A DNA stretch of 45,824 nucleotides from Alphaproteobacteria bacterium (GTDB taxonomy: Bacteria > Pseudomonadota > Alphaproteobacteria > TMED109): positions 1-45,824 of the forward strand of contig JAJDYI010000036.1 in assembly GCA_022825235.1 (NCBI GenBank), in the 5' to 3' direction. This document shows positions 3,587 through 10,732 of the stretch, one piece after another; the first letter of the stretch is position 1, and every line of letters starts with the position of its first letter. Made by a program: the position numbers and the translations under genes. The notes below the pieces were generated by a model. It searched no databases. It was not told the DNA's origin and worked only from the letters and a program-made list of their open reading frames with translations.

Positions 3587-4055
3587 TTCCGGCCTTGTAC
3601 CTGCCGATCTAGGGGCAGGTCCCGGTGAAATTACGCATGGTCATACATGCCCTGCGACGACAAGGGCCGCGCAAATGCCCCATCCACGTACGCACGGAAT
3701 TATGGTGAAACCCAGCCATGGGTAAAGGACGTGCCACAAGAAACGTCAGTTCTTGACACATGAACGCGGCACTGGGACCCGGGGCGACGCCGATCGACAG
3801 GACGACCGTGGCGGATGGACTGGCGGTCGCGGGCCTGCGGCCGACCGGCGGCAGCTTGGCAATTGAGTTCGAATACGGCGGCGCGGCCGTGCAGCCCGCG
3901 ACTGAACCGGGCAGTGGCTTCGGCCCCGGCGACGGCGTGCTGGCGGAGCACGATCTGCTGGCGGATTCCCGCACGTTCCTCGCCCGGTTGCGCAACGCCC
4001 GTGCGCTTGCGGTCCGGGAGTACCCTCGCTAGGGCGGGGGTTGGGCGACGCGGAC
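3587..4055. other. Degenerate region upstream of the DUF2285 remnant
   Basis: One 90-codon frame (3760-4032, plus strand) begins with ATG just after a TTGACA, but its product matches nothing I recognise and it ends in a different phase from the DUF2285-like frame that follows. It may be the decayed N-terminal part of that gene, or chance. Confidence 0.4.
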
Positions 4056-4547: not shown

Positions 4548-5405
4548 CTACCCACGCCAGTGCGCAGCTCGCGCATTTCTTCTAGCAGCTGAGAGATCGT
4601 GCCTGAGCTTCTGTGCCCAATATCGAATACCGCTATCCTTAGATTCTCTTGCACACCTCCGTAGCGCAGCACGAAGCACTTTGTTGCTCATTAGGTTTTC
4701 TATTGCTTCAAGTCGTGGGCGAATAGGCCCCAGACCTAACCACTCTGCTGCGTCCCACGCCGGATCACGTTTGCTCTCAGACAATATTGCTTTTCTTACC
4801 TCTTCCTCAATGCGGTGGTCAATGCAATTTGGGGTCCAGCCGAACATTAGCGACAACAGCGCACGTATAATTTCCATATAAACACGCCCGATCATTCCTC
4901 CGTCCGTGTTGTTACCACCCTCGATACTCGCATACCTATTTGTTACAAGTACTTCGGCTTTGCCATGTTTCCGAAAATAGTCAAGGATGTTTGTATTTCG
5001 CTGGATGGTTGTGACGCTTTCCAGGTATTGGATAGCGGCGTCGAAACATCGCTCTAGCTCTTTGAATGCCTTGGGGCTGTGTTGTTGAATATCGGCCATC
5101 AGTCGGTGTAGTTCGTGCCCGCGAGAACGAATCTCTTTCTCTGACATGCCAGCGTCCAACAGAATCGCCTTGAGGCCCTTCTCGATTGCCTCGTGAGCAT
5201 TCCTAGCATCCGCCCTTAACTTAGCTTTTGAATATGCTGAGGAGAGTAATCCAATCTGTAGGAGTCTCTTAAAGAATTTATCTTCAGGTTGTGCGTCTAG
5301 GTTCGCTGCATGAGTCAAGCGGCTATGTATATCGCGCGGCGGTCTCTCCAGTTCGTCGAGAGCAAACCTCAAATCCGCCCATACGTCTTCCTTGTTTAGG
5401 GACAT
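4548..5405 (-). CDS. Hypothetical HEPN-like protein, AT-rich
   Basis: A protein of 285 aa (293 if begun at the ATG at 5429). I chose the ATG at 5405 because AAAAGG lies about 10 nt upstream, whereas the first ATG has no such site. The N-terminal half is helical and contains AHEAIEKGLKAILLDAG followed by RGHELHRL, which resembles the A-x-E-K-x-L-K-x-x-L and G-H-x-L signatures of HEPN domains. RGHELH fits the spacing of an R-x4-H motif, but its position is not that of the classical HEPN ribonuclease motif, so catalysis is uncertain. Base composition is visibly poorer in GC than every neighbour, indicating recent transfer. It is divergent from the ATPase operon. HEPN proteins are common in toxin-antitoxin and antiviral loci; that role is inference. 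Confidence 0.45.
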   Translation of the reverse strand: MSLNKEDVWADLRFALDELERPPRDIHSRLTHAANLDAQPEDKFFKRLLQIGLLSSAYSKAKLRADARNAHEAIEKGLKAILLDAGMSEKEIRSRGHELHRLMADIQQHSPKAFKELERCFDAAIQYLESVTTIQRNTNILDYFRKHGKAEVLVTNRYASIEGGNNTDGGMIGRVYMEIIRALLSLMFGWTPNCIDHRIEEEVRKAILSESKRDPAWDAAEWLGLGPIRPRLEAIENLMSNKVLRAALRRCARESKDSGIRYWAQKLRHDLSAARRNARAAHWRG

Positions 5406-5429
5406 TGTGATGTTTGCCTTTTGGCGCAT

Positions 5430-5772
5430 GCTGAAGAGACTATAGCTTTTGTCTGTCCCTGAAATTACTGTACCAAATTGAGTCCATTTGGAAGCTTCGC
5501 ACTTTCGTCACCTAAAGCGGTCCAAAAAGAAATGTGCGATCGTTCGGTTGATGGGTCCAATCCACACGTGTAATCGAGAAGGCGCGTGGCCAATCCAGGG
5601 ACGACATCTGTCAGTGGATCTCGGTTGGCAAGCGCCTCCCGGCCGACAGAGCGAGAGGCGAGGCAGGCGAGATCGAATCAGGGGCGGGAAAGCCGGTTGT
5701 GCAGCAGTGAAGGTGCTGCGAAATGCAGGCAGGGTAGACGGTCCTACGGAATGCGGCAGATCTGGATTCAGG
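5430..5772. other. Divergent intergenic region
   Basis: This space separates the HEPN-like gene (leftward) from the ATPase operon (rightward). I found no gene in it. The repeat-containing promoter begins right after its right end. Confidence 0.5.
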
Positions 5773-5811
5773 GTTGACAACAAGGTTGTTGCCAACGATA
5801 TTGTTGCCAAC
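5773..5811 (+). promoter_or_regulatory. Promoter with three 15-bp-spaced GTTGNCAAC palindromes
   Basis: Three 9-bp palindromes, GTTGACAAC (5773-5781), GTTGCCAAC (5788-5796) and GTTGCCAAC (5803-5811), start exactly 15 bp apart, and a half site, GTTGG, starts at 5818 on the same period. A sigma-70-like promoter is embedded in them: TTGACA at 5774-5779, a 17-bp spacer and GATATT at 5797-5802. The first palindrome covers the -35 hexamer, the second ends next to the -10, and the third covers the expected transcript start. This layout is that of an operator array where a bound protein would block transcription. The ATG of the first ATPase follows at 5832 with GGAGGAGAG as ribosome binding site. Confidence 0.65.
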
Positions 5812-5831
5812 GTTTTCGTTGGAGGAGAGCC

Positions 5832-7088
5832 ATGATCCGAAAAGGCGGCAGCAACTGGGTCGACGGAGAGAACTTCTTCGACCGCGAGTCGGAGCTCGAA
5901 GCGTTGGAAGAGCGGGTGCGGGAGAAAACCCACACCCTTCTGACCGCACAGCGGCGGATGGGTAAGACCAGTCTGGTGCGGGAGCTGCAGCGCCGTCTGG
6001 CCGAAACGGGAGACTTCGAGGTCGTCTTCGTCGATCTGGAGGCGGCTACCGATCCGGCCGATGCGATTGCCGAAATCGGAGTTCAGGCGAAGGCCGTGCG
6101 TGCGGCTTGGGATCGGATCATGACCAGTTTCGCCATTCTGGTGAGGAGCGCTGGCGGCCGGATCGAGGAACTCTCGCTTGCGGATCTGAAGGTCAAACTG
6201 CGGGCCGGGATCGATGCGGGAAATTGGTCGCAAAGAGGTGACGCGATCTTTGCCGCCCTGTCGGAAAGTGGCCGGCCGGTCGTGCTCGCAATCGACGAGT
6301 TACCGATACTGATAAACCGGCTGCTGAAGGACGAGACAGGACGCGTGACACCGGAGGGGAAACGGGAGGCTGACGCGTTCCTGAGCTGGCTGCGCAAGGC
6401 GGGTCAAGCCCACAGGGATCAGGTCACGCTGATCCTGTCGGGCAGCGTGAGCCTGGAGCCGCTGTTGGAACAGGCCGGGCTCAGCGCCCAAGCCAACATC
6501 TTTTCTCCTTACGATCTGAAACCGTGGAGCGAGGAAACTGCCGTTTCCTGCCTGGAGGCGCTTGGCCAGTCCTACGAGGTCAGTCTCGGGCCGGAGGCCG
6601 GGAGGGACATGTGCCGCAGGCTGCGTTGTTGCATCCCGCACCACGTCCAGATGTTCTTTGACAGGATGCACGATCATCTGCGGCGCACCGGGAGAAAGGC
6701 CGCCTCGCTGGAAGATGTCGAATGGGTCTATGTGCGGGAGATGCAGGGCGTCCGGGGGCAGGTGGACCTGCAGCATTACGAGGGCCGGCTGGAGACGGTC
6801 CTCGGGAGAACGGGGTACACGGTTGCGCTGGAGATTCTCACGGCAGCGGCAGTCGACGGCGGTATCGCTGCCGAAACGATCGACCGGTACCGCGAATATT
6901 TCGCGACGGGAGACGCGCACGACGGAGACGGCGCGCCCGCGTTTGACCATGTGCTGCACGTCCTGCAGCACGACGGCTATCTGGAACCTAGGGACGGCGG
7001 TTACCGGTTCGTGTCCGGACTCGTCGAGGACTGGTGGCGCGGACGCTACGGGCAGAGGTTCGTGTCCGTGTTCGACCGGCAGCGCTGA
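5832..7088 (+). CDS. P-loop ATPase, first gene of ATPase/TPR pair
   Basis: A 418-aa soluble ATPase of the archaeal-ATPase/AAA type. The N-terminal FFDRESELEAL leads into a variant Walker A, LLTAQRRMGKTSL (residues about 37-48), in which the usual glycines are replaced, as is normal for this family. Walker B is VVLAIDE at about 150-156. A downstream SGS (VTLILSGSVSLEPLL) occupies the sensor-1 position. The C-terminal third looks like winged-helix or lid sequence (DHVLHVLQHDGYLE). The start is ATG 5832, with GGAGGAG upstream and a regulated promoter before it. The stop is 17 nt before the next start, so the pair is one operon. Function is unknown; I infer it works with the TPR ATPase as a signalling or defence pair. 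Confidence 0.8.
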   Translation: MIRKGGSNWVDGENFFDRESELEALEERVREKTHTLLTAQRRMGKTSLVRELQRRLAETGDFEVVFVDLEAATDPADAIAEIGVQAKAVRAAWDRIMTSFAILVRSAGGRIEELSLADLKVKLRAGIDAGNWSQRGDAIFAALSESGRPVVLAIDELPILINRLLKDETGRVTPEGKREADAFLSWLRKAGQAHRDQVTLILSGSVSLEPLLEQAGLSAQANIFSPYDLKPWSEETAVSCLEALGQSYEVSLGPEAGRDMCRRLRCCIPHHVQMFFDRMHDHLRRTGRKAASLEDVEWVYVREMQGVRGQVDLQHYEGRLETVLGRTGYTVALEILTAAAVDGGIAAETIDRYREYFATGDAHDGDGAPAFDHVLHVLQHDGYLEPRDGGYRFVSGLVEDWWRGRYGQRFVSVFDRQR

Positions 7089-7105: not shown

Positions 7106-10100
7106 ATGGCCGTGGCCGCCAGGAAATACAATCCTGGTTTTCTCTCGATCGATGAACTTGTCGCGACCTTCTGCGTCCGGACGGCCGAATACGAAACCCT
7201 GATTGAGGCACTACGCGAGTGCTCGGGTAGCGCGAACCCCCATCAGATCGTGATCGGGCCGCGGGGCAGCGGAAAGACCAGCCTGCTCCTGCGGGTGGCG
7301 GCGGAGGTGCCGCGCGATGCGGATCTGGCGGCGCGCTTCTTCCCGATCGTGTTCGCGGAGGAAAGCTACGAGGTCTCGACAGCCGGCGAGTTCTGGCTCG
7401 AATGCGTTTCCCGACTGGCTCATCAGGCGCCGCGCCGGGACGGCGATGTCGACTTGCAGCGCACCTTCGAGGAACTGCGCACCATCCATGACGACCGGAC
7501 GCTGGAGGACCGGTGCCTCGGGGTGCTGCAGGACCTTGCAGATCGGGAAGAGAAGCGCCTCGTACTGATCGTCGAGAACCTGAACATGATGTTCAGGGAC
7601 ATGGGCGACGACGATGCGGGCTGGCGGCTGCGGAAGGTGCTGCAGACCGAACCGCGGATCGTTCTGCTGGCTAGCGCGACCAGCCGGTTCGACCAGATGG
7701 ACGATCCGAAGAAAGCGCTCTACGAGCTCTTCCGGGTGATCCGGTTACAGCCGCTTGACACGGAAGGCTGCGCGACCTTGTGGCAGACCGTGTCGGGGCA
7801 GACACGGGCGCCACGGACGATCCAAGCATTGCGGATTCTCACCGGCGGCAGCCCGCGGTTGCTCACCATCGTGGCCCGGTTCGGCGCAAACCTGTCGTTC
7901 CGCGAGCTGATGGCCGATCTTCTCGACCTTGTCGATGACCATACCGAGTATTTCAAGAGCCACCTCGATGCGCTTCCGGCCCAGGAGCGAAAGGTGTATC
8001 TCGCCCTAGCCGATCTCTGGAAACCGGCGAATACACGCGAGGTCGCGGAGCGGGCCAGGCTCGGAACCAGCAAGTGCAGTGCCCAGCTGGCCCGTCTGGT
8101 CGATCGGGGTGCCGTGGAGGTGAGCGGCGGCAGCCCGCGGCGCAAGCTCTACTATCTGACCGAGCGGCTCTACAACATTTACTACCTGATGCGCCGGGCG
8201 CGCGGACCGGCACCGCTAATCGATGCGCTGATCCGCTTCATGGAGGCGTACTACTCCACGGACCAGCTGAAGGAGGTTGGGGCCCGCATGGCGCGTGAAG
8301 CGCTGGGGTCTGACGGCGGCGCGTTGGCGATTTACCGAATGGCCTTCGAGCGTCTCGTTGGGCTGCCGTCCCTCGATCCGCATCGCGAAGAACTACTTTC
8401 GCTGGCGTCGCCTGCCCTGGCGTATGCGCCCTGTGAGTTTTCTGAAGTGTCCGCGGCGCCGTCGGCCACCAGGGACCTCTTGAGGAAAGCGTTGGCGCTC
8501 GCGAAAGGGGGTCGGTTGCAGGATGCCGTGGCGGCCTGGGACGAGGTCGTCCGGAGGTTCGGGAAGAGCGATGCGCTGGCAGATCTCGAACAGGTGTCGA
8601 TGGCGCTCGTCAACAAGGGAAAGGCGTTGGGCAATCTGGGGAGAGCGGAAGAAGCATCGGCGGTGTGGGACGACGTGGTGCGGCGGTTTGGGGCAGACGA
8701 CGGGGAGGGCCACCCTCTGGCGGTGGCGACAGCGCTCGCGAGCAAGGGCGTATTGCTGGGCAACCTAGACCGCCACACGGAAGCGCTGACAGCCTGGAAC
8801 GAGGTCGTGCGACGCTTCGGCACGAGCCGGGTGCCGGCACTCGAGATGCTAGTAGTGAATGCGATGATCGGGACTACGGTCGCGCTGAATGCTTTGAACC
8901 GGCCCCAGGAAGCCCTGGATGCCTGCGACGAAGTGCTGGAACGCGTCGGCAATAGTGATTCGTCCGGGGTTCACGGTGTAGTGGCGGTCTCCATGGTCGC
9001 ACGGGGGCACGCACTCATCGCGCTGAACCGCGTCAACGAAGCAATAGACACCTGGGGTGCCGTGGTGCAGCGATTCGGGACGAGCGACTCTCTCAGAATC
9101 GTCGAACAGGTTGCTTCGGCGCTTGTAAATATCGGAACAGCGCTCTTCAAATCGGGCCGGTTGGAGGAGGCGCTGACCGCGCTCGACGGGGTCGCGGAAA
9201 GCTACAAGGCAAGCGATGCTCCGTTCTTTCGGGAGGTGGTGGCGCGCTGTTTCGCCAACAGAGGCAACGTACTGGCCGCGTTGAAGCGGGAAACGGAAGC
9301 ACTCTCGTCGTGGGAAGAAGCGATCCGGGGCTTCGAGGCGGTCGGTTCGCCGGATGCGGCGGAACCGTATTGCAACGCGCTGATGAACAGGGCGGCGGCG
9401 CTGCACAACGCTGGAAGGTCCGAGGAAGCCTTGCAACAGTGGGGCGACATGGTGGAACGCTTCGGTGGCGACAATCGGACCGGTGTTCTTGCCATGATTG
9501 CGCATGCCCAGACGCACAGGGGCGCCGTGCTGGAACAGTTGGGCCGTTTCGAAGAGGCGCTCAAGGTCTGGGAGCAGGTCGAAGACCGCTTTGGAAACAG
9601 CGACGTGCCGGAGTGGGTCGCGCTCGCGGCAAGCTCCCTTCAGCACAGGTGCGCCGACCTGTTCGAGCTGAATCGGCCGGAGGAGGCGCTCGCGACCTGC
9701 GACCGGGCGGTCGATCGCTTCGGGGAAAGTGTCGTGCCGGGAGTGGTCGATGCGGTCGCGGGGATTCTACTCAACAAGGGCATCGTGCTCGCCACCACGC
9801 ACAGGAACGAGGAGGCGCTGGCGGTCTGGGACGAGATCGAGCGGCGATTCGGAACCAGCGAGGTGCCGGAAATTTCGAAGCAGGTTGCCTCCGCTCTCGT
9901 CGGCAAGGGTGCGACACTGGTCCATATGAACCGACCGGAGGACGCGATTGCGGTGTGGAGCGACGTCGTGCACCGGTTCGGGGAGGGCGATGCATCCTTG
10001 CATCACGAGGAGATTGCGACGGCTGTCCTCAACAGCGTGGCGGTATTGGGCTCGTTGAACCGGCCGGAGGAGGCGCTTGAGGCCTGTGACGACGCGCTCC

Positions 10101-10732
10101 GTCGATTCGGGGATAGCGAAGAGCCCTATGGTGTCGAGACAGTCGCGCAAGCTCGCGTCAACAGAGGTGCCCTGCTGGTCGCTCTTGACCGGACCGAGGA
10201 AGGGCTGGCGGCGTGGGACGAGGTTGTCCGGCGCTTCGAAGCGAGCGATGTACCGGTGCTTCGAGACACCGCGGAATCGGCGCTGTGCAAGCGGGCACTG
10301 CACGAATTGACCGAAGGCCGCGCAGGGACCGCCGTCGGATTTCTCGACCGTGCGCTGCTGCAGGGGCGGGCGGGAATGCCGGACAGCAGAGTGCGGGGCC
10401 ATTTGATGCGGGCGCGGGCATACTTGGCGCAAGGCGATGGCGAAGCATGCGCCGGGGATGTCGAAAGGGCGCTGTGGATTCTTCCCGAACTGAACGTCTT
10501 GCCGAGAGACGTGCTGGTGGCCCTGGCCGATCTCTCGACGGGTGTCGGGCCGGAAAGGATGTGCGAACTGATCAACTCATCGCCCGCCGGCGATCTCCTG
10601 CTGCCGCTTAGAACGGCGCTGGAGAGGGAGCTTGGGCTTGAGCCGAGGGTGGCCAGGGAAGTCGAAGAGATTGCGGAAGACATACGCCGGGAACTGCTCG
10701 CCCGGCCTAACGACAGTGGTCAGCGCCAGTAG
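7106..10732 (+). CDS. P-loop ATPase with winged helix and fourteen 43-aa TPR-like repeats
   Basis: A 1208-aa multidomain protein. Residues 1-290 form a P-loop ATPase: NPGFLS, then GPRGSGKT (51-58), a conserved-looking FAEESYEV...GEFWLE stretch (83-99), Walker B-like RLVLIVEN (151-158), a sensor-like LLASATSRFDQ and GGSPR. Residues about 295-345 look like a winged helix (REVAERARLGTSKCSAQLARLVDRGAVEV region). Residues 467-1068 are fourteen tandem repeats of exactly 43 residues with no insertion or deletion, consensus NRPEEALAVWDEVVRRFG plus a linker and VASALVNKG. The tail is TPR-like. I chose ATG 7106, with CGGGAG 8 nt upstream, over an ATG at 7034 that lies inside the preceding gene. The architecture resembles STAND-type sensors, where repeats detect a partner and the NTPase switches state; that role is inference. 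Confidence 0.85.
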   Translation: MAVAARKYNPGFLSIDELVATFCVRTAEYETLIEALRECSGSANPHQIVIGPRGSGKTSLLLRVAAEVPRDADLAARFFPIVFAEESYEVSTAGEFWLECVSRLAHQAPRRDGDVDLQRTFEELRTIHDDRTLEDRCLGVLQDLADREEKRLVLIVENLNMMFRDMGDDDAGWRLRKVLQTEPRIVLLASATSRFDQMDDPKKALYELFRVIRLQPLDTEGCATLWQTVSGQTRAPRTIQALRILTGGSPRLLTIVARFGANLSFRELMADLLDLVDDHTEYFKSHLDALPAQERKVYLALADLWKPANTREVAERARLGTSKCSAQLARLVDRGAVEVSGGSPRRKLYYLTERLYNIYYLMRRARGPAPLIDALIRFMEAYYSTDQLKEVGARMAREALGSDGGALAIYRMAFERLVGLPSLDPHREELLSLASPALAYAPCEFSEVSAAPSATRDLLRKALALAKGGRLQDAVAAWDEVVRRFGKSDALADLEQVSMALVNKGKALGNLGRAEEASAVWDDVVRRFGADDGEGHPLAVATALASKGVLLGNLDRHTEALTAWNEVVRRFGTSRVPALEMLVVNAMIGTTVALNALNRPQEALDACDEVLERVGNSDSSGVHGVVAVSMVARGHALIALNRVNEAIDTWGAVVQRFGTSDSLRIVEQVASALVNIGTALFKSGRLEEALTALDGVAESYKASDAPFFREVVARCFANRGNVLAALKRETEALSSWEEAIRGFEAVGSPDAAEPYCNALMNRAAALHNAGRSEEALQQWGDMVERFGGDNRTGVLAMIAHAQTHRGAVLEQLGRFEEALKVWEQVEDRFGNSDVPEWVALAASSLQHRCADLFELNRPEEALATCDRAVDRFGESVVPGVVDAVAGILLNKGIVLATTHRNEEALAVWDEIERRFGTSEVPEISKQVASALVGKGATLVHMNRPEDAIAVWSDVVHRFGEGDASLHHEEIATAVLNSVAVLGSLNRPEEALEACDDALRRFGDSEEPYGVETVAQARVNRGALLVALDRTEEGLAAWDEVVRRFEASDVPVLRDTAESALCKRALHELTEGRAGTAVGFLDRALLQGRAGMPDSRVRGHLMRARAYLAQGDGEACAGDVERALWILPELNVLPRDVLVALADLSTGVGPERMCELINSSPAGDLLLPLRTALERELGLEPRVAREVEEIAEDIRRELLARPNDSGQRQ
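8504..10309 (+). repeat. Fourteen in-frame 129-bp units encoding 43-aa TPR-like repeats
   Basis: Units begin at 8504 and every 129 bp after it, the fourteenth at 10181. They are conserved mainly at the protein level (R-x-x-E-A-L, W-D-E-V-V-R-R-F-G, A-L-x-N-K-G-x-x-L). The DNA units differ widely, so this is an old, selected array rather than a recent tandem duplication. The length is longer than the 34-residue classical TPR. Confidence 0.85.

Follow-up and report, generated by a model that had tools for sequence, protein, structure and literature searches.

What recognizes the short palindromes that recur every 15 bp on the promoter of a two-gene operon, and to what effect? The operon lies in the window, the 45,824-nucleotide stretch of DNA that was analysed here. 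An earlier note on this DNA described palindromes starting at 5773, 5788 and 5803 with a 15-bp period across a promoter, and these letters and positions are exact. GTTGACAAC at 5773–5781 and GTTGCCAAC at 5788–5796 and 5803–5811 are exact, with a period of 15 bp, and the third palindrome of this GTTGCCAAC/GTTGACAAC type is followed on its 3′ side by GTTG at 5818–5821. In the whole window, single GTTGNCAAC sites with at most one mismatch are about as frequent as chance predicts, 12 being observed and 12.2 expected. The two-copy 15-bp pattern is found in the 3.85-Mb genome at this promoter only, a reversed control pattern has no match in the same genome, and just one other genome among 385 of the class contains the two-copy pattern.

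The unit itself was framed from orthologs. Because ortholog arrays start with CCAAC and finish with GTTGG, the true unit is a palindrome of 14–16 bp, (C)CAAC-N6-GTTG(G), with the consensus CCAACA-R-W-W-Y-TGTTGG (CCAACARWWYTGTTGG) from 147 units. Three such units, exactly 15 bp apart, span 5778–5821 (Table 1). The positions of the earlier reading stand, but its frame does not, as GTTGNCAAC is formed where two adjacent units meet. Likewise, GTTG at 5818 is present as described, but it belongs to unit 3 as the right arm and is not a half site. The TTGACA-N17-GATATT promoter that was said to be interleaved with the palindromes is there, with its spacer of 17. As judged from the letters and their conservation, the repeated short palindromes are genuine operator sites, framed one step off in the earlier note.

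Table 1 Positions in the window of the promoter, the operator units and the two genes.
Feature	Position	Strand	Basis or remark
−35 hexamer TTGACA	5774..5779	+	sequence; overlaps left edge of unit 1
Operator unit 1, CAAC-AAGGTT-GTTG	5778..5791	.	sequence and orthologs
Operator unit 2, CAAC-GATATT-GTTG	5793..5806	.	sequence and orthologs
−10 hexamer GATATT	5797..5802	+	is the 6-bp spacer of unit 2; 17 from −35
Operator unit 3, CAAC-GTTTTC-GTTG	5808..5821	.	right arm abuts ribosome-binding site GGAGGAG
Gene 1, AAA ATPase with C-terminal winged helix (ATPase_2/AAA_22)	5832..7088	+	Pfam, AF2, PDB
Gene 2, AAA ATPase with wHTH and TPR repeats, candidate operator binder	7106..10732	+	Pfam, AF2, PDB
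Gene 2 wHTH-coding DNA, residues 288–364	7967..8197	+	model and weak MarR/SlyA-type matches
Gene 2 recognition helix, residues 320–334	8063–8107	+	within wHTH

A protein scan with the gene 1 ATPase gave 59 loci, from Alpha- and Gammaproteobacteria, delta-proteobacterial lineages, Planctomycetota, Acidobacteria, Chlorobi, Lentisphaerae, Aminicenantes and others, the host labels being approximate because many of the loci are metagenome bins. The earlier note had named the absence of the motif from orthologous loci as the outcome that would speak against it. When promoters of orthologous ATPase/TPR pairs were compared, motif and period were found to be kept: at least one unit pair at 15 bp lies upstream of gene 1 in 52 of the 56 loci examined for arrays, although these are not 56 independent cases because many are close relatives. 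Of the 92 intervals between successive units in this subfamily, 72 are 15 bp. One locus (L048) is consistent with a concerted switch to AAACA-N4-TGTTT, with the spacing also at 15 bp. With a loose cut-off of 8 of 10 matches per unit, the background is 0–1 units per kb of gene body and ~0.1 per shuffled upstream region.

The array marks the exact beginning of a clean conservation footprint. When 11 close alphaproteobacterial loci are lined up by their distance to the start codon, the upstream flanks are unrelated, with ~25% identity, and the value climbs to 89% at the left edge of the array. Palindromic sites that overlap the promoter of the operon and are kept in orthologous promoters, not in flanks, are as expected of an autoregulatory operator. 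Motif, position and ortholog conservation thus bear out an operator array on a genuine promoter. Among the literature matches listed, no relevant description of the motif letters was found. Deposited gene 1 ortholog sequences contain stops or frameshifts in some copies (L017, L009/L063, L034/L035, L102).

We conceived that the array is probably the operator of a self-regulating operon, at which dimers of the gene 2 product would bind the palindromes and repress both genes. Each CCAAC-N6-GTTGG palindrome would be bound by a dimer through a MarR/TrmB-like winged helix, and dimers side by side on the three units would lie on alternating DNA faces. They would thereby cover −35, −10 and the start region, so that transcription of genes 1 and 2 would be repressed. 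The DNA would be released when the TPR/ATPase part, perhaps together with the partner ATPase, senses some change. Here motif, position, conservation, motif exchange and solo gene 2 copies are observed, and from them we infer binding, dimers, repression and signal. The array-bound protein may also activate rather than repress.

The two genes constitute a paired-ATPase family without a name in the profile libraries or literature searched, and they are adjacent in almost every homolog, distant ones included. The gene 1 product has 418 aa and is of the ATPase_2/AAA_22 kind by Pfam. Its AF2 model (mean pLDDT 88) matches archaeal ATPases in the PDB, 2qen with Z 25.8 (3.1 Å over 320) and 2fna with Z 25.0 (3.6 Å over 328). 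The gene 2 product contains the Pfam domains AAA_16, TrmB (28.8 bits against a curated cut-off of 25.6) and TPR with many repeats. The AF2 model of its residues 1–460 (mean pLDDT 80) matches Orc1/Cdc6, CED-4, plant NLRs and 2qen (Z 20.1, 4.7 Å over 321), and the maltose-system entry 8bob is also among its structural matches. As in NTPases of the STAND/ATPase_2 type, a P-loop ATPase is combined with a winged helix, with helical repeats in gene 2.

The earlier note suggested an encoded winged-helix protein as the binder, and the best candidate is the TPR-ATPase of gene 2. Winged helices of the STAND type can be purely structural. In gene 2, the recognition helix and the wing are basic, as in the MarR/TrmB type. 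On average, the wHTH carries a charge of +6.3 in gene 2 and of −4.6 in gene 1; the exposed recognition-helix positions are conserved in gene 2 alone (0.60 versus 0.22 in gene 1). The gene 2 profile also matches DNA-binding domains of the MarR/SlyA type among PDB sequences, weakly (E 0.03–0.06). Recognition-helix similarity gave no clear signal with operator class beyond overall relatedness. The operator is also found where gene 2 stands alone. Plasmids of Agrobacterium salinitolerans and Sphingobium baderi encode gene 2 at 38–42% identity without gene 1, and a gene 1 search of the collection gave no match in those plasmids. The promoters of these solo genes keep CCAACA-N4-TGTTGG units, which are CCAGCAGAATTGTTGC, CCAACAAATATGATGG and CCAACAATTTTGTTGG at one and CCAGCAGATTTGTTGG and CCAACAAAATTGATGG at the other. 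Because solo loci keep the operator, the wHTH is basic with conserved exposed recognition-helix residues, and the profile matches are to MarR/SlyA, gene 2 probably encodes the operator binder, as far as sequence and models can tell.

Alternatively, the gene 1 product or an obligate gene 1–gene 2 heterodimer could bind the array, as archaeal Orc1/Cdc6 pairs do on origin DNA. Both proteins have the AAA and winged-helix layout, Orc1/Cdc6–DNA structures rank high for both, and the genes are neighbours in nearly all loci. We consider this unlikely, because the same operator is kept at the solo loci that lack gene 1, and because gene 1 has an acidic winged helix in which the exposed residues of helix 3 vary although the operator is constant. 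With the Orc1/Cdc6 pairs (2qby, 2v1u), the operon shares the fold, the possibility of two different subunits and repeated DNA sites. On the other hand, its sites are on a bacterial promoter with no origin context seen, and the comparison covers fold and layout. A joint complex of the two products, which both have a winged helix and occur together in nearly all loci, is possible. The HEPN-like protein, for which the earlier note also suggested a binding test, is not supported as regulator, since it has no homolog near any ortholog; its gene, at 4548–5429 (−), is divergent from the operon without being conserved alongside, and its Pfam HEPN match is just under the cut-off.

With gene 2 as the likely binder, the regulator would be carried by the operon itself, and operators of distant relatives bear on this. 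In distant homologs of the operon, the corresponding place is taken by tandem palindromes of different sequence, mostly (n)ACA-N4-TGT(n), with periods of 16, 17 or 27 bp. They are GCAACA-N4-TGTTGC at 16 bp in L110, CGTTAT-N7-ATAACG at 17 bp in L112, L117 and L121, AAACA-N4-TGTTT-like at 16 bp in L115 and L116, ATACA-N4-TGTAT-like in L118–L120, ACGACA-N4-TGTCGT-like at 16 bp in L182, and TTGACAA-N8-TTGTCAA at 27 bp in the solo L163, although some of these arrays are individually weak against shuffles and some were read by eye. The palindrome-array score averages 7.7 for 57 family regions versus 4.9 for 87 control upstream regions, with overlapping distributions. In one Aminicenantes genome (G403), five paralogous loci have five different arrays. 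Because distant homologs carry different palindromes, including these five, the regulator appears to travel with the operon.

Regulators are mostly unlinked to their targets, and binding by any protein is deduced here, so that a host transcription factor encoded elsewhere could be the binder. This is very improbable, however, as the same motif accompanies the operon across many phyla, each genome has few or no other sites of the motif, and a host-wide factor hardly fits five paralogous operons of one genome with five different arrays. A broader reading, for and against which we find the case evenly balanced, is that the operator specificity of a self-carried STAND-type repressor (AAA-wHTH-TPR) has diversified repeatedly, that several paralogs per cell act on separate operators, and that solo members are regulators beside Pycsar genes. 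Incidentally, a distant paralogous pair in the window's own genome (L123, contig C81) has a weak ACGACA-N4-TGTCGT-like array 5′ of 5249–6811, which is not above shuffles on its own and resembles the array of L182.

The geometry of the promoter distinguishes a DNA site from an RNA structure. The palindromes are able to form hairpins, and −35 and −10 overlap units in the window; the array could thus work as RNA, by leader hairpins or an attenuator, or be merely a decorated promoter. In most orthologs, TTGACA scores best as −35. The −10 sits within a unit in alphaproteobacterial orthologs, as it does in the window. Delta-proteobacterial, planctomycete and similar loci have one or two units 5′ of −35 and two or three after −10, 42–56 bp away. 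Lineages therefore differ in where the promoter falls within the array, while the array remains on the promoter. Because units flank the promoter, whose place relative to the array varies between lineages, the units are better read as a DNA operator; a unit 5′ of −35, found in many orthologs, would escape transcription. Only a slim chance is left to the RNA or decorated-promoter explanation. As a promoter of comparable quality is found in 21% of shuffled regions, the argument is the conserved position, not the promoter score. Helical phasing of the upstream unit, 42–56 bp away, is weak (R ~0.5) and similar for periods of 10, 10.5 and 11.

Conservation that starts exactly at the array, in an operon spread over phyla, could also mark the end of a mobile cassette, with the array as a recombination site or terminal repeat. 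This is hardly credible, since matching units past gene 2 were found in 0 of 62 loci and the array position follows the promoter; the terminal-repeat candidate was rejected as units are absent after gene 2. In a Nannocystis bin (L131), an array-like pair at 9368–9396 lies directly past the gene 2 stop codon. A viral or phage origin was rejected as well, with no relative in the viral contigs or phage records searched. An iteron-like replication or partition site, to which the earlier note had likened the short tandem repeats of fixed period, has next to no probability and is rejected on layout, because the repeats are inverted and not directional as in plasmid iterons, are confined to the promoter at chromosomal loci in many genomes, and have no replication gene in sight (a Pfam scan of neighbouring proteins gave no Rep).

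As a probable operator under gene 2 control, the array has analogues, from which its regulator differs in type. RptR of a phage-defence island (PMC12255303) likewise has three tandem short palindromes overlapping −10 of the promoter of its own operon. RptR is a 9-kDa helical repressor whose 6-bp palindrome is inside 9-bp direct repeats, whereas the candidate here is a large AAA-wHTH-TPR protein with 14–16-bp palindromes at 15 bp. The WYL repressors CapW and BrxR of CBASS and BREX (PMC9122588, PMC9122601) likewise sit as wHTH dimers on palindromic or inverted-repeat sites at promoters of their own or adjacent defence genes. Unlike them, gene 2 lacks the WYL domain, has ATPase and TPR parts instead, and is preceded by multiple tandem units.

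Among STAND proteins, MalT is an activator that joins an ATPase with helical repeats to a C-terminal LuxR-type HTH. Gene 2 similarly couples ATPase and helical repeats to a DNA-binding domain. Its wHTH, however, directly follows the ATPase module, and its sites suggest autorepression, while MalT activates. With the array, a widespread ATPase-TPR operon, of which no description was found in the literature searched, gains a defined DNA site and a candidate for the protein that binds it, and a promoter reporter would make the operon's signal testable. If a STAND-like ATPase is indeed the repressor, sensing and gene control would be united in one molecule.

The solo plasmid copies of gene 2 adjoin Pycsar cyclase genes (PycC E 1e-184 and 1e-117 in Agrobacterium, 1e-91 in Sphingobium), at 3799–3959 of L170 and 1043–4904 of L169, which suggests a role in the control of immune-like systems. 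The L170 array lies within a divergent promoter region, and the Agrobacterium array may control both sides because it is in the shared 160-bp intergenic region. The ATPase pair itself might have a guard or sensor role. In a scan for known anti-phage systems, genes 1 and 2 gave weak mad8 ATPase matches only. PADLOC gave no match for 10 neighbour proteins from six two-gene loci except an SMC-like protein, and Pfam found mostly housekeeping families in a similar neighbour set, with no defence island at the sampled loci.

Another solo locus is in the window's own genome. On contig C32 (L127), an operator pair at 467–495 precedes a second gene 2 homolog at 648–2576, with gene 1 reduced to an N-terminal remnant between them, and this locus may be a decayed copy. 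On the same contig, an orphan canonical array, CCAACAGAATCGTTGGCAACAATCTTGTTGG, lies at 7633–7661 with no family gene detected 3′ of it. Such arrays without an operon, in this genome and its relatives (L127 at 7633, L128, L130), resemble relics or chance occurrences. Among distant plasmid relatives, one lies beside Qat genes and another comes after a WYL regulator gene.
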